Virus record (IMG/VR): IMGVR_UViG_3300020469_003402
Coordinates: 1-24,216 of that record
Strand: one strand, 5' to 3'
DNA: 24,216 nt
DNA from: a virus
Positions 1,913 through 23,125 of this stretch are shown here, piece by piece. The first letter of the stretch is position 1, and each line of letters opens with the position of its first letter. The notes under the pieces were generated by a model. The model had not been told where the DNA came from, did not search any database, and saw only the letters and a list, made by a program, of their open reading frames with translations. A program made the position numbers and the translations under genes.

Positions 1913-2452
1913 TTATAGCCATGGCTCGCTATCTGCGGTTCCTGGTCCGTCATATTTTTTTGGTGGTAGGTAACGATTATGATCCATATCGTGTATCGTA
2001 AATAATCCGCCTTCACTCTTGTTTGTACCCTGACCTGCAGACTCAGTGCTTACCGTGGGTAAGTGTCCTGCATCTCCATCAACAAAGTCGCCGTCAAAGA
2101 ATCCCTGCTGCACAAGACCCTCGCCTTTCCTACGCATAGCATCCTGTAGTTTCTTGTGGCGGTCTTCTGTATAATCTATTTGATATGCGATTGGTTCTGT
2201 TTCATTATCATGTACTACCCACATGTAAAGATACTCTTCGTTCGTGCTTGCGTAACTTAAGAATTCAAAAGGAATAGTCTTTAGTTTGACTGTAGGATAT
2301 CCTAACACTGTGTCAAAATAATAATAAAGTCCAACCGCACTAGCCATAGTTACTGGAATGATATAGTAGAGATGTACGCTGGATTTAGTTGAAATCAGAG
2401 CATAGATAACAATCAAACTAACTACTATGCAGATAAACAAGAAATAAGTCAT
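1913..2452 (-). CDS. Two-pass membrane protein of the ExbB/ExbD-like operon
   Basis: This 179-residue protein has two hydrophobic segments near the N-terminus (about residues 3-20 and 27-46), then a soluble region. The last 70 residues are rich in Gly, Asp, Ser and Pro and look disordered. I do not recognise a family. It is the third gene of an apparent operon: its ATG overlaps the TGA of the ExbD-like gene (ATGA), and AGGA lies 10 bases upstream, so translation is probably coupled. The context suggests a third subunit or partner of the channel-like pair upstream. It could also be a spanin- or exclusion-type membrane protein, but nothing in the sequence proves this. Confidence 0.7.
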   Translation of the reverse strand: MTYFLFICIVVSLIVIYALISTKSSVHLYYIIPVTMASAVGLYYYFDTVLGYPTVKLKTIPFEFLSYASTNEEYLYMWVVHDNETEPIAYQIDYTEDRHKKLQDAMRRKGEGLVQQGFFDGDFVDGDAGHLPTVSTESAGQGTNKSEGGLFTIHDMDHNRYLPPKKYDGPGTADSEPWL

Positions 2453-3066
2453 GGTCCGTGTTTCCTTACAAGATTCTTAGGAAGATAGTTTATATTTTCT
2501 ACAAGTCCTGCTGGAGTTATTTTGAATCTCACAAATGTTTCTTCTTGTCCGTGGGCCGAAAAAACTTTTGAACTATTGTGAATAACTTGAAATGGGTTTA
2601 GTCGCAACACTTCAACAGTAACATTTGCATCACCTGATATATGTTTAGGATGAGCACCTACGTTCCCATGACTGTATAGATGTGCATTTACAGTATACTT
2701 TCCAGACTCTAGTGCTCTAAGCGAAACTATTTCTCTGTTTATCCTTACAAATTTGACTTCGCCGTCGGCTGTGATAAAAGTGTCATTGCGTGTACCTAGA
2801 TCATCCTTATCAAGATGTAAACTGCCTTTGTTCGGAGAAACATAGCTTACAATCCCACTAGGTGAATCTATCCATAGATCCATATCAGCTGTATGCATGT
2901 CATCCCAACTAAGGATGACCAGTATTTCAGCTTTCTGTTCTATGTCTGCAGTTTTTTCAGGTGTGTTGATTAATAAGAAACTTATTAAGAATAACATTAC
3001 AAATCCTAGCATGAGATTAAACAATAAATCAATAAAAGCTAGATTTGAAATGTATCTATTATCCAT
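2449..3066 (-). CDS. ExbD/TolR-like membrane protein with YfaP-like periplasmic domain
   Basis: A 205-residue protein with one N-terminal membrane helix, FIDLLFNLMLGFVMLFLISF, carrying an Asp (residue 13) at the start of the helix, as in ExbD, TolR and MotB, where this Asp carries protons. The rest is predicted to be periplasmic. Residues about 50-95 (MDLWIDSPSG, then LDKDDLG) resemble the YfaP/DUF2135 beta-domain instead of the usual ExbD/TolR C-terminal fold or an OmpA peptidoglycan-binding domain. I chose the ATG at 3066 because GAG lies 7 bases before it. An in-frame ATG at 3078 has no ribosome site and would lengthen the overlap with the upstream gene. The likely partner is the ExbB-like protein just upstream. 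The helix and partner argue for a proton-driven complex; the role of the outer domain is unknown. Confidence 0.65.
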   Translation of the reverse strand: MDNRYISNLAFIDLLFNLMLGFVMLFLISFLLINTPEKTADIEQKAEILVILSWDDMHTADMDLWIDSPSGIVSYVSPNKGSLHLDKDDLGTRNDTFITADGEVKFVRINREIVSLRALESGKYTVNAHLYSHGNVGAHPKHISGDANVTVEVLRLNPFQVIHNSSKVFSAHGQEETFVRFKITPAGLVENINYLPKNLVRKHGP

Positions 3067-3502
3067 CAGTGCTCTCATCTATTAACACTAATTGCAGTTT
3101 TAGTATCACACTACAAACCAATCCTATCAATGTGGTCCATAATGCAGTTCCCATGCCAGTAGCCATGATAGCTAGTGCATCCTGTACACTAGCAGTGTCA
3201 TCAACATTTATGTCAGTAAACACTGTGGTCAGCATGTATATAAATCCTACTACTGTGCCAATCATACCTATGCTTAACATGGTTTCACTAACAAACCATT
3301 CTTGCACGGTATCAAATGCCTTTTTAATATGTAATTTATATCCAAGCCTTAGAGAGAAAAGGAAGAATAAACCTAGGATAAGCCAACTTAGTTTTGTTAT
3401 ATCATTTTCATATAATTGATGGATGAATCCAAAGAACCAACTTATTGTTATGATTAATATACTGAAACAAAAGATAGTCCACCATTTTAATTTTATTTGC
3501 AT
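3059..3502 (-). CDS. MotA/TolQ/ExbB-like proton-channel protein
   Basis: A 147-residue membrane protein with four hydrophobic stretches at about 7-27, 38-57, 74-95 and 112-140. The last two carry the family signature: SIGMIGTVVGFIYML, then ATGMGTALWTTLIGL, which matches the conserved G-T-V-x-G and A-L-x-T-T-x-x-G-L elements of ExbB, TolQ and MotA. Known relatives form a pentameric ring that passes protons and drives an ExbD/TolR/MotB partner; that partner is encoded directly downstream with an 8-base overlap. It is shorter than ExbB or TolQ (about 230-245), mainly lacking the long cytoplasmic loop. ATG 3502 follows AGGA by 6 bases and an exact T4 late box, so it is probably made late. A role in lysis, superinfection exclusion or energising the envelope is possible. 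Confidence 0.75.
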   Translation of the reverse strand: MQIKLKWWTIFCFSILIITISWFFGFIHQLYENDITKLSWLILGLFFLFSLRLGYKLHIKKAFDTVQEWFVSETMLSIGMIGTVVGFIYMLTTVFTDINVDDTASVQDALAIMATGMGTALWTTLIGLVCSVILKLQLVLIDESTDG

Positions 3503-3519: not shown

Positions 3520-3527
3520 TATTTATA
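3520..3527 (-). promoter_or_regulatory. T4-type late promoter (exact TATAAATA)
   Basis: The minus strand carries TATAAATA exactly, 17 bases before the ATG of the ExbB-like gene, with the ribosome site AGGA between them. In T4 this box is recognised by the gp55 sigma factor with gp33 and the sliding clamp. Neither gp55 nor gp33 lies in this window. Confidence 0.6.
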
Positions 3528-7819: not shown

Positions 7820-9331
7820 TTATGAAAAAACTTTTGTATTATACATTATAGCAAATTTATCTGCATCTGTCAAATTGTTTACCATTGGTTTGCCTTTTAT
7901 ATTTAAACTGGTGTTAAGTAAAATTGGACAACCTGTTATTTCATACCATCTTTCCAACAGCGTCCTAAAACCCGTGTTATCTTTCTTTGTAACCGTTTGA
8001 ACTCTGCTGGTTCCGTCTGCGTGGATAACTGCAGGGTATCTTTTAGGATATTTACAATGTGAGGTGTATTGCATATAACGTCCGTATGGTGGCCGAAATA
8101 TTCTGTCTGCATGTTCTTGGAGTACTGCAGGCGCAAATGGTCTAAATTTTTGACGTTGTTTAATTTCGTTGACCCTATCCTTAATATTGCTAGCACGAGG
8201 GTCAGCAAGAAGACTACGATTACCAAAAGCACGAGGACCGAACTCGGCTCTTCCTGATGCAACCCCTGCAATACCTGTTTGTAAAAGTTCTTGAATGATT
8301 TCATCAACTGGATATTCTCCTCCTATATCATAGCCAAGGAAAGGTCCTGACCATTCAGTGTGTTCTTCTTTATGTGCAAGTACTGCTCCTATACTAGAAC
8401 CAGCATCACCTGGATTGGGCATGATCCATACATTTTTCCAATCATTTTCTATAATTTTATTTGCTGCACAATTCAAAGCACATCCTCCCATAAAAACAAA
8501 ATTTTTATTTGGAAAATAATTTTTAATATTTTTACTTATAAAATTCAGTAACTCTTCGTATGCAGCCTGTACACTTGCTGCTGTGTCATATGCCCATTGT
8601 GTAAATATCTGTTGTCCATTTATAATATCAAATGCTTTTTCTGTTGGGTGCCACCACATGCACCCTCGGTGTAAATTTTCTTTACATTTTACAGTAGGAA
8701 AATTAAACCAATACTTAGTGTGTAATTCTTCAAAATTAAAAAACTTTTCAAGTATATCATTTTTATAAATTGGTTTACCATATGCAGCCATACCCATTAA
8801 TATGTATTCATCTTCATTTGGTTTCAATCCTATGCGTTGTGTAAAAGCACTATACCACAAGCCAATGCTGTTAGGAAAATTTGTACTATGAACTTTCTTT
8901 ATCTTGTTCTTATTTGCAGTCCATATTGTTAATGTGTTAAATTCACCAATAGCATCTATCACAAGTATTGTAGCATTTGTAAATTTGCTTGTGAAATATC
9001 CAGCAGCAGCATGACTATGATGGTGGTTAATGATTTTGATAGGAACAGAAATGTTGTATTTTTTCAAATATTTTTTGACATTGTTTTCCCTAAACCTTAA
9101 ACCTTGTCCTGCTGATAGTTGACGTATAGATTTCAACATTGGATTCTCATACCAAACAACTTGTTGTGGATATCCCCAACGTTGTGCGTACCGTATGATA
9201 TCTACATTCAAATGTCGATCATTTTTAAGTCCACTAAATCTTTCTGTATGACTTGCAAATACAATATCGTTGTCATGAAATACTGCCAATGCAGCATCAT
9301 GACTGTTAGCACTTATTCCCCAAATAATCAT
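7820..9331 (-). CDS. NodU/CmcH/TobZ-family carbamoyltransferase
   Basis: A 503-residue two-domain carbamoyltransferase. The Kae1-like N-terminal domain has the metal-binding NHHHSHAAAGYF (102-113) and MGGCALNCAAN (281-291). The YrdC-like C-terminal domain has the family hallmark GRAEFGPRAFGNRSLLADPR (360-379), RPFAPAVL (397-404) and LNTSLNIKGKPMV (472-484). Relatives make carbamoyl-adenylate from carbamoyl phosphate and ATP and pass the carbamoyl group to a hydroxyl, on antibiotics or Nod factors. Related phage enzymes have been linked to carbamoylation of 5-hydroxymethylcytosine in DNA. Its place between primase and helicase, in the same compact unit, favours a DNA target, but a sugar made by the glycosyltransferase cassette is an alternative. 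It is slightly shorter than most family members (about 540-600). Confidence 0.93.
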   Translation of the reverse strand: MIIWGISANSHDAALAVFHDNDIVFASHTERFSGLKNDRHLNVDIIRYAQRWGYPQQVVWYENPMLKSIRQLSAGQGLRFRENNVKKYLKKYNISVPIKIINHHHSHAAAGYFTSKFTNATILVIDAIGEFNTLTIWTANKNKIKKVHSTNFPNSIGLWYSAFTQRIGLKPNEDEYILMGMAAYGKPIYKNDILEKFFNFEELHTKYWFNFPTVKCKENLHRGCMWWHPTEKAFDIINGQQIFTQWAYDTAASVQAAYEELLNFISKNIKNYFPNKNFVFMGGCALNCAANKIIENDWKNVWIMPNPGDAGSSIGAVLAHKEEHTEWSGPFLGYDIGGEYPVDEIIQELLQTGIAGVASGRAEFGPRAFGNRSLLADPRASNIKDRVNEIKQRQKFRPFAPAVLQEHADRIFRPPYGRYMQYTSHCKYPKRYPAVIHADGTSRVQTVTKKDNTGFRTLLERWYEITGCPILLNTSLNIKGKPMVNNLTDADKFAIMYNTKVFS

Positions 9332-9466: not shown

Positions 9467-10425
9467 CTTTTTGCTCCAAGTTTAATTTTTAATGCAGTTT
9501 GTTGTTTATATTTAATAATACTGTTCAAAGTAAGTATTCTTCCGTATTTATCAACAGCATCTCCTACATCTTTTACAGTTTCGTCCCAAGGTGGCATACT
9601 TATTGTCCAACCATTGTCTATAGCAATTTCAACAAAGTTTTTGCCTGCTTTATCTCTATCAGGAACACAAATAATTTCTTTTTGTAATGAATTTAGTAGT
9701 AAAACTTGTTGTTGATTTATTTCTGAACCAAGTGTGGCTAGACCTTGCATATGGATTGCATCAATTGGTCCTTCACATACTATAGCAAATTTTTTATCAA
9801 CTGTTTGGTTATCATATCCATAAACATAGCCAGGTTGTGAAGAAGTAAGGTATTTTACTTTGTTTTTTTTAACTGATCTTGCAGTATAACCAACAATATT
9901 TTTTTTGAATGTAAAAGGAATAATTAATCGATCTTTGTATGCTAACTGTGATGACCAATATAGATTATTTTGAAAATAAGATAAGGATCTGTTATCTATG
10001 TAGGCTAAAACATGTTGTACCAATTTTTGATCAACTTGGCTTATATTCTTTGTGTTTTCTGGCAATAAGGTTGTAGTAAAGTTCGGAATAGTTACAAGTT
10101 TTGTGCTTCCATAGAGACCTTCGTTTTGTCTTAGTATCTCTAATGATAACTTTGTGATAGTTTCGTCATTTACGTTAATCCATGACAGAAATTTTTTTGT
10201 TTTATTTGATAGATTCCTACCGGCCTGCCATGAGCATTTATAACCACAGTTAAAACAGTGATAACTAAAAGACCCATCTGCATTAGGTAAGAATCCTCCA
10301 CGTCCTCGGTTATCCATTCTATGGCCATTATGATGACAACAAGGCGCATTAAATGATATCCAACCACTTGGTGTTTTTTTTCTTTTGTTAGGTAGATGTT
10401 GTAAAAATATATCAGTTATAACCAT
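9445..10425 (-). CDS. 61: DNA primase, DnaG/gp61 type
   Basis: A 326-residue TOPRIM primase that makes RNA primers for lagging-strand synthesis with the gp41 helicase. An N-terminal zinc-binding region (residues 29-60) has Cys and His at 29-32 and the pair FNCG with Cys57 and Cys60. The TOPRIM core has VCEGPIDAIHMQ with catalytic Glu218, then CVPDRDKAG with Asp256 and Asp258, followed by KDVGDAV (285-291). Length fits T4 gp61 (342). A near-consensus sigma-70 promoter sits immediately upstream and would start RNA at about the ATG. There is no ribosome site, so the mRNA may be leaderless. The 3' end overlaps a 43-codon gene. Confidence 0.93.
   Translation of the reverse strand: MVITDIFLQHLPNKRKKTPSGWISFNAPCCHHNGHRMDNRGRGGFLPNADGSFSYHCFNCGYKCSWQAGRNLSNKTKKFLSWINVNDETITKLSLEILRQNEGLYGSTKLVTIPNFTTTLLPENTKNISQVDQKLVQHVLAYIDNRSLSYFQNNLYWSSQLAYKDRLIIPFTFKKNIVGYTARSVKKNKVKYLTSSQPGYVYGYDNQTVDKKFAIVCEGPIDAIHMQGLATLGSEINQQQVLLLNSLQKEIICVPDRDKAGKNFVEIAIDNGWTISMPPWDETVKDVGDAVDKYGRILTLNSIIKYKQQTALKIKLGAKRWFGKNI
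9474..9477 (-). promoter_or_regulatory. Ribosome binding site of the 43-residue peptide
   Basis: GGAG on the minus strand, 7 bases before ATG 9466. It lies inside the primase coding sequence and is the main reason to believe the short gene is translated. Confidence 0.6.
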
Positions 10426-17141: not shown

Positions 17142-17170
17142 ATTATAACACTTTACAAATAAGAAATCAA
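17142..17170 (-). promoter_or_regulatory. Sigma-70 promoter candidate for the uvsW unit
   Basis: The minus strand has TTGATT (17170-17165), a 17-base spacer and TATAAT (17147-17142). The -10 matches exactly, the -35 four of six. The predicted RNA start is at about 17135, giving a leader of about 17 bases before ATG 17118. The -35 lies in the last codons of the glycosyltransferase gene. Confidence 0.55.
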
Positions 17171-18016
17171 CCTAGAAAGTGGATATCCTGTTGAAATTTC
17201 ATCTGCTGTCCATTCAGTAAAGCTTATTTTTTTAAGCCATTCTTCTCTATCAGGGTGTATTGGTTGTTCAATGTGTTCGAATGTTTGATTGCTTACTGGC
17301 CATGCTAAACTTTTTTTATTAACAAAAATTGGAACTCCTGCTATAGCTGCTAGTGTACCAGGATTACTAGAATAATTTACAACAGTTGAAATATTTGTTA
17401 AATCAAAATCATAATCATCATAAGTATCTTTTAACTTTACAGGTTGCTGTAACGTGATATTTTTATGATGTTTTATATGTTTTTTATCTATAGGACATCT
17501 TGGATGTGGTCTTATAATTATATTCTGATTTGAATATTTCCTAATTTCAACAATGGTGTTGTTTACCCATGCATCCATATGCAATGGTGAATCCCATTGC
17601 ATACTACTTCTGTGTTGACCTGCAATGAGTATAGCACCTTGTTTGTGATGCCAAGGTTTTAAAGATAATTTTAGTTTGGAAATCCTACTTTCATCGATGT
17701 CGTAAGTACCGTAACAGGCAGAACCGGTTATTCCATTAACAGCCATCTTCCATGTATGACCTCTTGCGAAAGCACCAACTTCTAAAACAATTATGTTTTT
17801 ATTTTGTTGTTTGGCACGATTCCATATTTCTAAATTACCTTGCATTCGACCACGTAATAAAACACTCCAAATTACATGTACGTCTGCTGATAAACTATTA
17901 TGTATACATTTATAACCTAACCTATTAGCGCCCATTTGAAAAGCATCAAAAACAGGTTTGCTATTCAATGCTCCAAATTTAGACCATAAACTAAATGTTT
18001 TGCCAGTATGGTTCAT
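17153..18016 (-). CDS. GT-B-like (capsule-synthesis type) glycosyltransferase
   Basis: A 287-residue protein, one of four related domains in this cassette. The shared block reads KYSNQNIIIRPHPRC (160-174), then NYSSNPGTLAAIAGVPIFVN (214-233), then a C-terminal W-x-x-D-E-I-x-x-G. RPHP followed by a Ser-rich loop and a (T/A)-x-(A/E)-A-x-x-G-(V/I)-P strand is the donor-sugar half of GT-B folds such as capsule polysaccharide synthesis proteins. The N-terminal half has HVIWSVLLRGR and IIVLEVGAFARG (75-86). The acceptor and sugar are unknown. Its start overlaps the upstream GT-A gene by 26 bases, with only a weak ribosome site. It is the last gene of the cassette. Confidence 0.7.
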   Translation of the reverse strand: MNHTGKTFSLWSKFGALNSKPVFDAFQMGANRLGYKCIHNSLSADVHVIWSVLLRGRMQGNLEIWNRAKQQNKNIIVLEVGAFARGHTWKMAVNGITGSACYGTYDIDESRISKLKLSLKPWHHKQGAILIAGQHRSSMQWDSPLHMDAWVNNTIVEIRKYSNQNIIIRPHPRCPIDKKHIKHHKNITLQQPVKLKDTYDDYDFDLTNISTVVNYSSNPGTLAAIAGVPIFVNKKSLAWPVSNQTFEHIEQPIHPDREEWLKKISFTEWTADEISTGYPLSRLISYL

Positions 18017-18836
18017 TTCTTAACACACTTAAATCTCGTCTAGCACTTTTCTTTGTAGCCTTCCTTGCTCCTTTTAGATGATCAATCCATGTGCCTAAAA
18101 TACAGTTTATAATCGGATGGCCTCCTCCTCCAGTTTTTGCAGTAGCCAAAGAAAGATTTTCTGTATAATCAAAATAATTTGGATTTTGTTTTTTAAATTT
18201 ATCTAGAACATGTCCGAACACATAACTATCGTGCCATTCTTCTAATTTGAATATACCTTGTTCAGCATTTTCATACATAGCTTCGAATTCCTGTAAGAAT
18301 TTCCTACAAGTGCTATCATTAAGGTTTAGTCCATAAAAACCACATTCGGGCCAGGTCTGAGCAGTTTTACCTCTACCTACATAAGTAATCCATTTGTCTT
18401 TTGGCAATAAAGCTGCAAAATCATTGTACGCCCAATCATTATGCACAAAGGTATCAGCATCCATCCATATACACCAGTCGCTACAATGATTTGCTGTTTC
18501 AAATATTGCATAAACTTTGTTTGCAAATCTTACAGCATCCCATTTAAATTCTTTGTGCCAATCTTTTGGCCTCTTTGCTTTGATATGATCAGGAGGAATA
18601 CCATTAGCATATAAAACATTTTTATACCGTTTTTTAAATGCTTTTAGTTTTGGTAAAGATTCTGCAGCATTTAAAATTGTAATCTGCTCTTTATTTTCCA
18701 AATTTGGATTACAATTTTCTGCATAGCATATTAATTTAATTTTATTATCAACTCTTGTTGTAAAAGAATCCAAAAACCTTTGTCCATACAGTGTCAATCC
18801 TTCCTGATTAAACGTAGTAACAACAGTAATATTCAT
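17991..18836 (-). CDS. GT-A-type glycosyltransferase
   Basis: A 281-residue protein, MNITVVTTFNQEGL at the start. It has a GT-A nucleotide-sugar site: WCIWMDADTFVH, with the DxD pair Asp126 and Asp128, and later ECGFYGLNLND and EEWHDSYVFGHVL. Relatives transfer a sugar from a UDP- or GDP-sugar using a metal held by DxD. ATG 18836 is chosen because it overlaps the upstream TGA (ATGA) with AGGA 7 bases before it; an ATG at 18860 lies inside the upstream gene. Acceptor unknown. It is likely translated together with its neighbours. Confidence 0.75.
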   Translation of the reverse strand: MNITVVTTFNQEGLTLYGQRFLDSFTTRVDNKIKLICYAENCNPNLENKEQITILNAAESLPKLKAFKKRYKNVLYANGIPPDHIKAKRPKDWHKEFKWDAVRFANKVYAIFETANHCSDWCIWMDADTFVHNDWAYNDFAALLPKDKWITYVGRGKTAQTWPECGFYGLNLNDSTCRKFLQEFEAMYENAEQGIFKLEEWHDSYVFGHVLDKFKKQNPNYFDYTENLSLATAKTGGGGHPIINCILGTWIDHLKGARKATKKSARRDLSVLRNEPYWQNI

Positions 18837-19759
18837 ATATATTTCCTTACGTGTTTCCAATATGATCCGTTTTCTATTTCCTCAAAATTCCAATGAAAGG
18901 TTGCAAGTCTATTTAACCATCTGTGCCTATCAAACTGCATAGGATTTTCTATCTCTGAAAAATCAAGATTTGATACTTCTGCACACTGACTATGTAATGG
19001 ATCAGTGATATATGCATTATAACCACAAATAATCGGTCCAACAATTGAACTACTGTTATGATTTACTACTGCATAACAATCTAACAAATCTTTTTCTATA
19101 GTGGTATTTAAATCCGTTATAAATGTATTATTAAATTTTTTTACAATCGAATTAAAAAATTTCCAACATTCGCGGGTGTTCTTATCTTTAGGATGAAATC
19201 TAATACGGATAGGTCTATCTGTATGTGTTCGGATTCTTAAACATGTAGATTCAAACCAAGATAGCAAAGATAGTTTTCCCATACTCCAACCTTTATCTCT
19301 TTGTGCACAAATCAATATATGGGCTCCTCCTTTTTTATAATCTTGGATTTTTAAATTAAGATCTTTTGATATCTGTTGCCATCTTGTATGATTAGGTTCG
19401 CTATCAAAATACATACCTGTATTGGGAAATACACCATTAAAACTATAACGTAGATAATGCAACGGTTCATTCGCAGGATTTGCGTACAGGAATAAATTAC
19501 TATCTGAAGTGCACACATGACTATTTTGGGTTCTGTTTATCACTCGTTGCCTAAGATCAAGATGTGGTAATTGTTTACCTTTTTCATGTTGCCAGCCCTG
19601 TATTAAACCAATATCTGCATCTATAAGATCAAATCCATCGTGAATTACTCCTGTATCACCAACAGCGTTTACACCTTGGACAAATTTCTTCAACATAGTT
19701 TTTTTTTCATAACTATTATTTAATCTTGGCAATACCTTTGAGTAACTGACTACTTTCAC
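18833..19759 (-). CDS. GT-B-like glycosyltransferase with GTG start
   Basis: A protein of 308 residues from GTG 19759. The shared block is THTDRPIRIRFHPKD (178-192), then AVVNHNSSSIVGPIICGYN (230-248), then W-N-F-E-E-I-x-x-G-x-x-W-x-H-V at the end. I chose GTG 19759 because it overlaps the upstream stop (GTGA) and GGAG lies 9 bases before it. An ATG at 19813 would place 18 residues inside the upstream gene. The first 65 residues include HDGFDLIDADIGLIQGW. It is related to the proteins at 17153, 21510 and the C-terminal half of 19756. The start HNSSS replaces the RPHP-linked SSNS loop of its cousins, so the sugar specificity may differ. Confidence 0.7.
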   Translation of the reverse strand: MKVVSYSKVLPRLNNSYEKKTMLKKFVQGVNAVGDTGVIHDGFDLIDADIGLIQGWQHEKGKQLPHLDLRQRVINRTQNSHVCTSDSNLFLYANPANEPLHYLRYSFNGVFPNTGMYFDSEPNHTRWQQISKDLNLKIQDYKKGGAHILICAQRDKGWSMGKLSLLSWFESTCLRIRTHTDRPIRIRFHPKDKNTRECWKFFNSIVKKFNNTFITDLNTTIEKDLLDCYAVVNHNSSSIVGPIICGYNAYITDPLHSQCAEVSNLDFSEIENPMQFDRHRWLNRLATFHWNFEEIENGSYWKHVRKYI

Positions 19760-21474
19760 TGAACATGGCTCCAAGCAAAGCCATTTATCATCTCTTTTCT
19801 TGTAAATTGGCAATAGCTAAGATGACACATTAATGAATACATATCATCTTTACTGGGATAAGTTAGGCATTCTATATTTGCCAAGCTAGTGTTGCATAAC
19901 ATAGAAGCACAATTAGGGCCTAAAGTAATAGCAGGTACACCATTCATTAATGCTTCTAGTGCTGCTATACTGTTATATGTAATAAGGCAATATATATCAT
20001 TTTTTCGTAAAATATTTGGTAACATATTGCTATCGTTGAATCTTTCTGGCCTACTCGGTTTGATTCTAATTTCAATTGGTCTGTCAGTATATGTTTGTAA
20101 TTCTCTTTTAATTTGTTGCACCCATATATCACTTGCTGGTAGGTCAAACAATTTCATGACATTATCACTTGGTGGACACACAAGAACAGTTGTACCTTCT
20201 TTAAATTTATGAAATTTCCAATCTAATAATCTATCATCTGGTCTTTCAATAATAGGTCCCATGTTTTGTAAATTATTTTTAGTAACTCTATGATAACCTT
20301 TTAATTTACTTTTGTCATTTCCAAAATAACCTGTGTCTATATAATAATATTCTCTTTTTGTTTTCCAACAATGATGTAATCCTTCTCTGGTACTTTTACC
20401 AACACCTCGCATAACAATAGGACGTCCTTTTGTTTTTTCTTTTTGCCAATCGCTTAGAATACCACCGCATCCATAAACAAACGCTTGTAAATACTCATCA
20501 TATTTATGTGTAGATTTTGTGTATGTTAAAGCATCATTAAATATCGCAGCTACCTTTGCATATTTTTTTCTAGTTTTTACGTTGACAGTTTCATTTACCA
20601 TAGTAATTGCTTTGGTAGTATTAAATCCATAATATTCTCCATCTGGGTCGATGTATGAATCGCTAACTGCTTTTAACGTGTGTAAAAGCGGATCTTGATA
20701 ACTACAGTCTTCAATAAGTTGGGGCGAAGCTTGTGCTGCATTTAATTTCTTTTTTGTTTTTGTTAATTCATCATGTAGATATTTACGTTCTATCTTATAA
20801 AATTCATTTGCGTATGCACAATCGGCACAATTATCAAACCAAGGACCACCTTCTGTGTAATGTAAAAATTTAGGTGTACCGTCTTTTGGTACATGGTACC
20901 AATTTACTAACCAATTCCATTCATGACTTATTTTTCCTATATCATTATCATGGAGCCAAGAAAATCTATGTAAATATTTGCCATCAATTTTAGGATTATT
21001 CACTAATGACTTTGTAAGTATCTGATTTGAAACATGTCCACAATTAAATAACATCATGCTAGACCAATTTTTCCTAGGATACAAATGTTGGATCTGACCA
21101 TCCATTTTATATCCTTTTCTTGGTGTGTAGTCATGTTGTGCACACATCAAAGCATACTTTTCATTACAATGATCAAACAATTGTTTTATATCAGTAAGAG
21201 CAATAAAGTCGCAATCAACGAACAATGCCCAACCTTTAAAATCGCATAATTCAGGTACTAGAAATCTCGAAAATGTAAATTCAGTGCTAGAAAGTTTATC
21301 TGTATCTCTCCAATATAATCCATTTTTCTTTACATCTTTTAATTTAATCGGTTGTATATCAACAGGCACTGATGCATAGGTCATTATACTTTCTTTACAG
21401 GTGTGGAAAGCAATATGCTCTCTTGAATCATATCCTACAAAAATTTTTAAATCTTCTTGATTTTGTTTTGTCAT
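19756..21474 (-). CDS. Two-domain glycosyltransferase, GT-A fused to GT-B-like
   Basis: This 572-residue protein joins two enzymes. The N-terminal half (about 8-225) is GT8-like: IFVGYDSREHIAF (11-23), STEFTFSRFLVPEL (63-76), ALFVDCDFIALTDI with DCD at 87-89, and HYTEGGPWF (205-213). The C-terminal half (about 330-572) is the GT-B-like family of this cassette: TYTDRPIEIRIKPSRP (461-476), then LITYNSIAALEALMNGVPAI (497-516). The donor-type motif here is KPSRP in place of RPHP. A lysine-rich linker lies near 235-250. There are 35 bases before the next gene upstream and no ribosome site or promoter I trust. It could add two sugars in sequence; both substrates are unknown. Confidence 0.8.
   Translation of the reverse strand: MTKQNQEDLKIFVGYDSREHIAFHTCKESIMTYASVPVDIQPIKLKDVKKNGLYWRDTDKLSSTEFTFSRFLVPELCDFKGWALFVDCDFIALTDIKQLFDHCNEKYALMCAQHDYTPRKGYKMDGQIQHLYPRKNWSSMMLFNCGHVSNQILTKSLVNNPKIDGKYLHRFSWLHDNDIGKISHEWNWLVNWYHVPKDGTPKFLHYTEGGPWFDNCADCAYANEFYKIERKYLHDELTKTKKKLNAAQASPQLIEDCSYQDPLLHTLKAVSDSYIDPDGEYYGFNTTKAITMVNETVNVKTRKKYAKVAAIFNDALTYTKSTHKYDEYLQAFVYGCGGILSDWQKEKTKGRPIVMRGVGKSTREGLHHCWKTKREYYYIDTGYFGNDKSKLKGYHRVTKNNLQNMGPIIERPDDRLLDWKFHKFKEGTTVLVCPPSDNVMKLFDLPASDIWVQQIKRELQTYTDRPIEIRIKPSRPERFNDSNMLPNILRKNDIYCLITYNSIAALEALMNGVPAITLGPNCASMLCNTSLANIECLTYPSKDDMYSLMCHLSYCQFTRKEMINGFAWSHVQ
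19769..19772 (-). promoter_or_regulatory. Ribosome binding site setting a GTG start
   Basis: GGAG on the minus strand, 9 bases before GTG 19759. With the GTGA overlap it decides the start of the GT-B-like gene ending at 18833. Confidence 0.6.
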
Positions 21475-21509
21475 TTATTTTTTTAAAAGATGTTTAAACG
21501 ATTACCCAT

Positions 21510-22451
21510 TTATTGCTTCTTTTGTAGTCCAATCGTTCTTAAATGTTGCCACATATCACCATTTGCAACTTCTTCGTTATTCCATATAGTGTATGATATC
21601 ATGTTACACCAAGTACTTATGTCTATGTTATAGTCTAGTTGTTCGATTTTTGATAAACATTTATGTCCTATATCATATGCAGAGGAAGTACTACTTAATG
21701 TAAATATTGGTATTCCTTTTTCAATTGCTTCTACACAACTGTTGCTACTGAAAGTTACTACACAGTATGCATTTTTAAAATCTTCTTGTAAGCCTGTTCC
21801 GCCATTAAGTGTTGTTGTAGAATTAAAATTTTTGCTTATACTAACGTTTTTGTAAATGTCATTTATAAGTTTTTCTTCTTTATATAATTTTGTTGTGCCA
21901 AGAGGATGTGGACGTATAACAATATTTCTATCAGTGTACTTACGTATTTCTTTTATTTGATCTATAATATAATTATCAAAAGATTTATAACCTGCATTAT
22001 ACATTTCTATTAATGCACTGTCGCCTTCGAGCTGTCCCATAATTAAAATATTATCTCCAGGACTATTCCAATTAATAAAATTAAGATTGTTTTCTTTTTT
22101 TATTTTTAACCAACGACTATTGTCTACATGGTTATTATTAAATTCTCCAATACCATTTTTGTAACTAGTCCAACCCCATCTTCGATAATTTGGTAGTTGG
22201 CGCATTGCGCCTTCTTCACATACAAGAAAAGGTAACTGTGTATTCAGCACATGTTTATATGCATCAGCTTTTTCTTGTCTATTATATTTGAGATATGGAT
22301 TGTAAATATTAAATTGTACAAAACAATTTGTGTTATATTCTTTATCTGCTACATATTTTGTAGCAATATATTTGTCATTATGATGTCTAACTCCTTGATC
22401 AAATTGTTCAAGTTTCCTTTTTACTATTTGTTTAAAACCAGTTATAATCAT
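21510..22451 (-). CDS. GT-B-like (capsule-synthesis type) glycosyltransferase
   Basis: A 313-residue protein with the shared block at 171-185 (KYTDRNIVIRPHPLG), then CVVTFSSNSCVEAIEKGIPI (230-249), then WNNEEVANGDMWQHLR at the end. The N-terminal half has LVCEEGAMRQLPNYRRWGW (77-95). RPHP plus SSNSCVEAI is typical of KpsC/KpsS-like and related capsule or surface-sugar enzymes. Its start overlaps the GT25 stop by 4 bases (ATGA). Of the four copies this looks closest to the cellular family, with the RPHP motif and Ser loop intact. The sugar and acceptor are unknown. Confidence 0.75.
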   Translation of the reverse strand: MIITGFKQIVKRKLEQFDQGVRHHNDKYIATKYVADKEYNTNCFVQFNIYNPYLKYNRQEKADAYKHVLNTQLPFLVCEEGAMRQLPNYRRWGWTSYKNGIGEFNNNHVDNSRWLKIKKENNLNFINWNSPGDNILIMGQLEGDSALIEMYNAGYKSFDNYIIDQIKEIRKYTDRNIVIRPHPLGTTKLYKEEKLINDIYKNVSISKNFNSTTTLNGGTGLQEDFKNAYCVVTFSSNSCVEAIEKGIPIFTLSSTSSAYDIGHKCLSKIEQLDYNIDISTWCNMISYTIWNNEEVANGDMWQHLRTIGLQKKQ

Positions 22452-23125
22452 AAGTTTTTAGTTAGACTTGCTGTATCTATATTATTACCAATAGCATAGT
22501 AAGGATGTAATCTAGCAACTGTAGGCACGGTTGTTTGAAGTTTTACTATTGTCGCATTTATTTGTTGATCAGCTGGTCTATGTCCATTTATTTTTATATA
22601 TCTTAGTATTTTCTTAGCGGCATGTGGTTTAATTATGTAAGAGTATGCGCCTTTAAAATAATCTTTAAGACCATATTTTAATACTTTTACTGGATTATTG
22701 GTATATGATGAAACTGTGGTTGGTAGATATTTTTCTGCATTTAAGTCTCGTTCGTAGTGTTCATTATAAGGATCTAGTCTATCTAATTTTAACACATCGT
22801 CAAATTGATCTAATATATTGTCTTGTATAGGCCGAGTTAAATATCCGTCATGTTCTAAAATAATAATTGGTTCATCTAGATCAACACAGATTTTCCATAG
22901 ATAGTAGTGACTAAAGAAACAACCAATAACACCTAGCCGACCTTTTTTAAATTTGCCTTGTGGCTTTAAACCTGTCATAGCATAATGATGTTCAAAATTG
23001 TTACCATTAATTGCTTTGTAGTATTTTGGACAAAGTCCGTGTTTAATGGCCTGTAACAAACACTCTTCAGCTATTTGACACGAGTGTTCATTTTCTTCTA
23101 ATCTGATGATAAATGTGTTTATCAA
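22448..23125 (-). CDS. Glycosyltransferase family 25 (LPS-type)
   Basis: A 225-residue protein with the GT25 plan: INTFIIRLEEN at the start, GCFFSHYYLW (68-77), then IIILEHDGYL (87-96), and AYSYIIKPHAAKKIL (160-174) near the end. The usual EDD metal site is EHD here. GT25 members add galactose or glucose to LPS or lipooligosaccharide. The start is TTG at 23125, overlapping the uvsY stop (TTGA), with GGAGG 10 bases upstream; no ATG fits. It is the first gene of the sugar cassette and joins it to uvsY with no gap. Confidence 0.85.
   Translation of the reverse strand: MINTFIIRLEENEHSCQIAEECLLQAIKHGLCPKYYKAINGNNFEHHYAMTGLKPQGKFKKGRLGVIGCFFSHYYLWKICVDLDEPIIILEHDGYLTRPIQDNILDQFDDVLKLDRLDPYNEHYERDLNAEKYLPTTVSSYTNNPVKVLKYGLKDYFKGAYSYIIKPHAAKKILRYIKINGHRPADQQINATIVKLQTTVPTVARLHPYYAIGNNIDTASLTKNL

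Follow-up and report, generated by a model that had tools for sequence, protein, structure and literature searches.

The proton-driven ring/axle motors described to date serve in motility, in the maintenance of the outer membrane, in the uptake of nutrients and in defence against phages. In the TolQR system, residues T145 and T178 of TolQ and D23 of TolR are essential (PMC12905483). How some phages without spanins breach the outer membrane is an open question (PMC6139136). Here we describe a viral locus of three overlapping genes, designated B, D and T. The genes look like a small proton-driven machine of the inner membrane and the periplasm. The same set occurs in the chromosomes of many Alphaproteobacteria and in phages of several unrelated lineages. 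In some phages it is joined to an enzyme that cuts the cell wall, which points to a function at the envelope of the host in late infection. No account of the B-D-T set, in phages or in cells, was found in the open-licence literature.

The window, that is the whole stretch of DNA that was analysed, is a 24,216-base virus record carrying T4-like replication genes (UvsX-like, UvsW-like and DnaB-like helicase) and a gene for a PolIII-alpha-like polymerase. It also carries a carbamoyltransferase gene and a run of glycosyl-/polysaccharide-transfer-like genes, at 7820-9331 and 17153-23125. The features of the B-D-T locus are the following:

3520-3527, minus strand: TATAAATA, a T4-type late-promoter-like motif
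3059..3502, minus strand: B, 147 aa, ring protein of the MotA/TolQ/ExbB family according to Pfam PF01618
2449..3078 as listed, minus strand: D, 209 aa, putative axle protein (from conservation and structure model)
1913..2452, minus strand: T, 179 aa, predicted two TM helices and OB-fold-like domain (from structure model and topology)

The first-pass annotation of this DNA had proposed that translationally coupled genes encode a TolQ/ExbB-like ring protein, a TolR/ExbD-like helix with the key Asp and a third membrane protein, a description that agrees with the present results. The overlap between B and D is 20 nt as listed and 8 nt if D begins at the in-frame ATG at 3066, and D and T overlap by the sequence ATGA. 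As the D homologues begin with MDxRYxSNLAF, the true start of D is probably this in-frame ATG.

The B protein matched the Pfam family PF01618 (MotA_ExbB) with 27.1 bits, compared to a cut-off of 22.9 (E 3.8e-6), and displays hydrophobic segments at approximately residues 9-28, 40-57, 72-95 and 115-138. When aligned by HMM to E. coli TolQ, T83 and T124 of B correspond to TolQ T145 and T178, respectively, and these ring threonines are kept in 51/54 (T83) and 53/54 (T124) relatives. Judged from its sequence, B is a member of the MotA/TolQ/ExbB family with both TolQ ring threonines. Regarding solved structures, the nearest PDB match to the B profile was ZorA (E 0.0017), and ZorA models were matched by up to 51 of the 54 B members. 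It should be noted that the match to ZorA models is not specific, since the main MotA-like family of PADLOC is ZorA.

The D protein has a single N-terminal TM helix whose Asp, D17 (numbering as listed), is invariant in 54/54 relatives and falls on TolR D23 in the HMM alignment. Comparison of the D profile with TolR gave an E value of 0.057, and no ExbD model was present among the Pfam matches of the 54 D members. Neither D nor T of the window had a Pfam or PHROG match, and no NCBIfam name applied to either protein. PHROG_1735, a family without assigned function, weakly matched 23 D proteins. The periplasmic domain of D was predicted to be all-beta in the AlphaFold2 model (pLDDT 87.9; all the structure models are single chains). 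The best structural matches of this model were four TerD entries with Z scores of 10.7, 10.4, 9.9 and 9.1 (VIA) over 129-144 residues, followed by one entry at 8.9, which is a lower-confidence integrative model, and by the next unrelated family at 6.3. Among the families listed, the modelled domain is closest to the TerD fold. A Foldseek comparison of the D and T models with the PDB returned nothing at E<=0.001, and no Pfam TerD match was obtained by sequence among the D members. The outer domain had previously been called YfaP-like, a label that is correct only in part: DUF2135/YfaP (PF09906) was matched in 2/54 D members (E 0.024 at best) and in a cellular D at 0.066, and the predicted structure is closest to TerD. 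Residues D65, D67, D92, D93, N98 and E116 are invariant in the domain; they would be compatible with a calcium site like that of TerD, and calcium binding by the periplasmic domain of D is a putative property.

The T protein has two TM helices, and in 45/54 sequences the loop between them carries more positive charge than either flank; the mean net charges are -0.67, +1.57 and -0.24 for the first flank, the loop and the second flank, respectively. Following the positive-inside rule, both ends of T would lie in the periplasm (N-out/C-out), and the C-terminal domain is predicted from the sequence to be periplasmic. The soluble part was modelled as an OB-like barrel (pLDDT 80.4) with Z scores of 6-6.7 only, a weakly supported likeness that may reflect a common arrangement. 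In one marine clade, and limited to it, T runs on into a T4-type lysozyme. This was observed in five contigs (L020, L027, L028, L030 and L179), in which the lysozyme part corresponds to the phrog_7 endolysin (E 7.6e-64) and the catalytic E-x8-D-x5-T pattern could be read from the sequence. Among the five fusion proteins, identity falls to 50% over T and to 72% over the lysozyme, with dN/dS values of 0.05-0.37 over both halves, which denote purifying selection. This divergence and these ratios argue that the fusions are maintained and are not assembly errors. Given the topology of T, the fused enzyme would be held in the periplasm.

Among annotated phages, D is present in 27 records, all with Rhizobium or Sinorhizobium hosts, where it is named only as a hypothetical or numbered protein. 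In six phages of different groups (16-3, X2_25, TM3_3_14B, RHph_N3_13, P10VF and RHph_I1_18), D lies between B and T, and homologues of B and T in isolates were found only in phages also carrying D. Integrase genes are present in 16-3, X2_25 and TM3_3_14B. Searches of IMG/VR yielded 102 relatives, and the B-D-T order was kept in 84/84 untruncated viral loci; later searches added 17/18 further loci with B-D-T, T being undetected in the remaining one, and six more loci. Such a recurrence in fixed order is more than chance. B-D-T is an indivisible cassette while its neighbours vary. Two insertions within it were observed: B and D are separated by a Seg-like homing endonuclease in one locus (L006:6225-6983), and D and T by a 288-aa protein of no recognised kind in another (L071:4424-5290). 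The commonest neighbour family is ClpP (13/54 non-redundant viral loci). An SbmA/BacA-type transporter gene adjoins the cassette in at least 7/54 of these loci and in further loci. Only 7/80 viral SbmA loci have the cassette nearby, which rules out SbmA/BacA as an obligate partner. The gene for this peptide transporter is itself highly conserved among viruses, with 85% or more identity to the query in 80 viral contigs (L089-L168; 207 relatives). Lipoprotein genes stand beside the cassette in few viral loci, and the lipoprotein found in cells (see below) has no viral homologue near the cassette, so the idea that viruses regularly pair the cassette with a lipoprotein was discarded. In 16-3-like phages and prophages (L003, L006, L007, L171, L174, L175 and L177), a gene for a secreted trypsin-like protease precedes B and one for a metallophosphoesterase follows T; relatives of both are located near the cassette in RHph_N3_13 too.

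A profile search detected D in 59/385 sampled Alphaproteobacteria genomes (~15%, about one in seven), in 5/297 genomes of the family of the Rhizobium genome and, at 1e-10, in 16/398 genomes across its phylum. A motif-based scan of species genomes yielded nine genomes only, several of them through 16-3-like prophages. The 59 Alphaproteobacteria genomes rule out a phage-only module, and the operon can no longer be viewed as the phage peculiarity that was at first supposed. In the 40 cellular loci inspected, B, D and T occur in order in 35; the other five comprise three with B and D only and one with D only above threshold, some of these four being at contig ends, and one in which the called T frame starts before D. 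Truncation or a T below threshold accounts for most of the five. The TM Asp is kept in most cellular D copies. The surroundings, read from the sequences, are chromosomal: mreC/mreD/PBP2/RodA-type genes, a SUF operon, PQQ dehydrogenases and RecO, of which the RodA and PQQ neighbours were confirmed by further matching. One cellular set adjoins mre/PBP2/RodA cell-wall genes. A lipoprotein gene directly follows T in 8/40 loci (L285, L298, L307, L308, L309, L312, L313 and L321), one of these lipoproteins showing a weak DUF3108-like match, and a role as outer-membrane partner is possible. In a FastTree of B+D, midpoint-rooted and read without support values, the marine viral clade is placed beside copies from ~1-Mb genomes of 28% GC, the 16-3-like phages fall together with copies of high-GC Alphaproteobacteria, and a further branch holds the lytic Rhizobium phages. 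Because of the wide chromosomal spread, transfer from host to phage appears the simpler reading of these sequences.

As noted in the first-pass annotation, an exact motif precedes the operon: TATAAATA is the sole copy in the window, compared to 5.8 expected from shuffles, and lies just upstream of B, with 25 nt from the motif start to the B start codon. TAAATA was then looked for in low-GC (mostly T4-like) loci in which 25 nt or more of intergenic DNA precede B, with other such genes as controls. At a distance of 12-60 nt, it preceded B in 16/21 loci, versus 16/131 of the other genes (p 4e-9, a value to be taken as a guide, the loci being not fully independent) and was the best of all 15 permutations of its letters. 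The sigma-70 hexamers TTGACA and TATAAT were not enriched upstream of B in the same low-GC loci. This enrichment points to late transcription in the marine T4-like group. By contrast, the nearest relatives of the window leave no room for a promoter before B, which overlaps or abuts the gene for PolIII or an oxidoreductase (in L263-L265, B overlaps the PolIII gene); this speaks against a simple lysis role. The earlier designation of a late operon finds support across the marine T4-like group, though not in these nearest relatives. In RHph_N3_13 and P10VF, the cassette is located amid replication genes.

As our best explanation, advanced with slightly less than even confidence, B-D-T would be a PMF-coupled envelope complex of the MotAB/TolQR/ExbBD kind that serves as a late release aid in marine T4-like viruses. 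Its parts deserve different degrees of trust: from its sequence, B-D-T is very probably a proton-coupled complex, it likely acts on the envelope, and a help in release or lysis in phages is a tentative proposal. What the comparison shows directly is the gene content and order, the residues, the predicted topology, the fusion, the promoter enrichment and the cellular copies, and from these we infer assembly, proton flow, late timing and a release role along the following lines. B would form a ring around the D axle and, as the conserved residues suggest, the TM Asp of D would carry protons past the B ring threonines. D would project its TerD-like, probably calcium-binding domain into the periplasm, and T, a membrane protein of two helices, would contribute an OB-like domain on the periplasmic side, the proton flow being turned into work on the peptidoglycan or the outer envelope. 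The system would be native to Alphaproteobacteria chromosomes, sometimes with a lipoprotein, and phages of those hosts would carry their own copies. In marine T4-like phages, the copy would most likely be made late, act on the host peptidoglycan or outer envelope and help open the cell, and in one clade the fusion to T would keep an endolysin in the periplasm. The broadest form of this proposal is rather doubtful: that several phage lineages adopted an alphaproteobacterial PMF machine for release, with the endolysin built in in one clade, so that a proton-driven complex would assist lysis, either in place of holin and spanins or in addition to them.

Two observations, the endolysin fusion and the late-type promoter, speak for a role in phage release. 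Against a simple lysis role, RHph_N3_13 and RHph_TM3_3_14B also have an endolysin and Rz/Rz1-type spanins elsewhere in their genomes; with such full lysis cassettes present, B-D-T is not a simple replacement of them, and spanin substitution was ruled out as a general role. The presence of cellular copies also speaks against a plain lysis role, as the chromosomal copies must serve something other than lysis in healthy cells, and so does the location amid replication genes seen in some phages. Regarding model searches, the Rz Pfam model had no match in 24 records, missing even the Rz/Rz1-like pair recognised by eye in TM3_3_14B, the T4 holin model had none in any record, controls included, and the phrog_7 endolysin was not found in 17 records, many of them fragments. 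Two gene annotations were revisited. In RHph_N3_13 (L252:9722-10033), the annotated gene 9722-9913 starts too late, and the longer frame is a lipoprotein overlapping the Rz-like gene, an o-spanin missed by annotation. The annotated holin p110 of phage 16-3 (L254:29049-29279) reads as an HNH-type small nuclease (C-x2-C ... H-H) with no hydrophobic segment, and from this pattern the holin annotation looks wrong.

Phages carry auxiliary metabolic genes, and the viral copy might supplement or override the host B-D-T and so preserve envelope function during the shutdown of the host proteome. This reading is compatible with the cellular operons in the same class of hosts, with the position of the marine viral clade next to the copies of the low-GC, ~1-Mb genomes, and with host-like phage neighbours (ClpP and SbmA, and ClpS- and SufT-like proteins recognised by eye); as it leaves the endolysin fusion and the late promoter unexplained, we consider it unlikely. 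A Zorya-like function in superinfection exclusion or inter-phage defence, in which the complex would detect or prevent damage done to the envelope by a second phage, would accord with the ZorA resemblance of B and with the maintenance of the cassette close to the integrase or immunity region of temperate phages and prophages. Such a function appears quite improbable, however, since the long ZorA tail and a ZorB-type partner are lacking, since no ZorC or ZorD was recognised among the neighbours examined, and since known exclusion genes are early, which makes the late promoter type a poor fit. Finally, B and D might work as a Ton-like energiser that powers uptake through outer-membrane receptors, together with the SbmA/BacA-type inner-membrane transporter encoded next to the cassette in some viruses. 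The adjacency of the transporter gene and the cellular lipoprotein following T would agree with it, whereas the scarcity of the cassette at viral SbmA loci and the structure of T, which with two helices and an N-out topology is unlike TonB, render it very improbable.

B-D-T would represent a further kind of proton-driven ring/axle motor, distinguished by the TerD-like domain of its axle and by a novel third component, and neither Pfam nor NCBIfam has a name for two of the three proteins in spite of their spread in about one-seventh of the sampled Alphaproteobacteria and in phages, including marine ones. Its cellular operon is a possible third Tol/Ton-like system. For phages without spanins, the set is a concrete and testable candidate for the breach of the outer membrane; 16-3, which carries it, is on the published list of spanin-less phages (PMC6139136).

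Compared with known systems, B-D-T resembles spanins and tethered endolysins in consisting of phage membrane proteins with periplasmic domains, the T-lysozyme being a tethered endolysin. It differs from the two-component spanin, made of an inner-membrane coiled coil and a small outer-membrane lipoprotein, in the architectures of B, D and T, and it coexists with Rz/Rz1-type genes in two phages. The likeness to TerD concerns the predicted fold and the conserved acidic motif of the periplasmic domain of D, which in D stands behind a TM helix in the periplasm and has no TerD sequence match. ZorAB had been put forward as the nearest parallel in plan, with no effector gene following, and the latter point was borne out, as none was recognised among the neighbours examined, nor were ZorC, ZorD or ZorE in the annotated isolate neighbours or the scanned recurrent neighbour families. 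ZorAB as the best parallel is not supported: although ZorA chains are the best-scoring PDB entries for the B profile, B has 147 aa compared to 280-729 aa in the deposited ZorA chains, hence no long cytoplasmic tail as in ZorA, and the ZorB model was matched by 4/54 D proteins (best E 0.0015) and not by D of the window. By sequence, B-D-T appears to be neither phage-specific nor Zorya, and is best described as an unrecognised cellular proton-channel envelope complex also carried by phages. From TolQR/ExbBD, it differs by the periplasmic domain of D, modelled as TerD-like and without a sequence match to ExbD/TolR, and by T, of another topology, in place of TolA/TonB, D and T having no Pfam or NCBIfam match. 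With TolQR/ExbBD it shares a ring protein with two threonines, an axle helix with an Asp and a short ring protein, and some cellular copies are paired with a lipoprotein, as in Tol-Pal; at the level of the channel, B-D-T belongs, as far as its sequence indicates, with TolQR and ExbBD.
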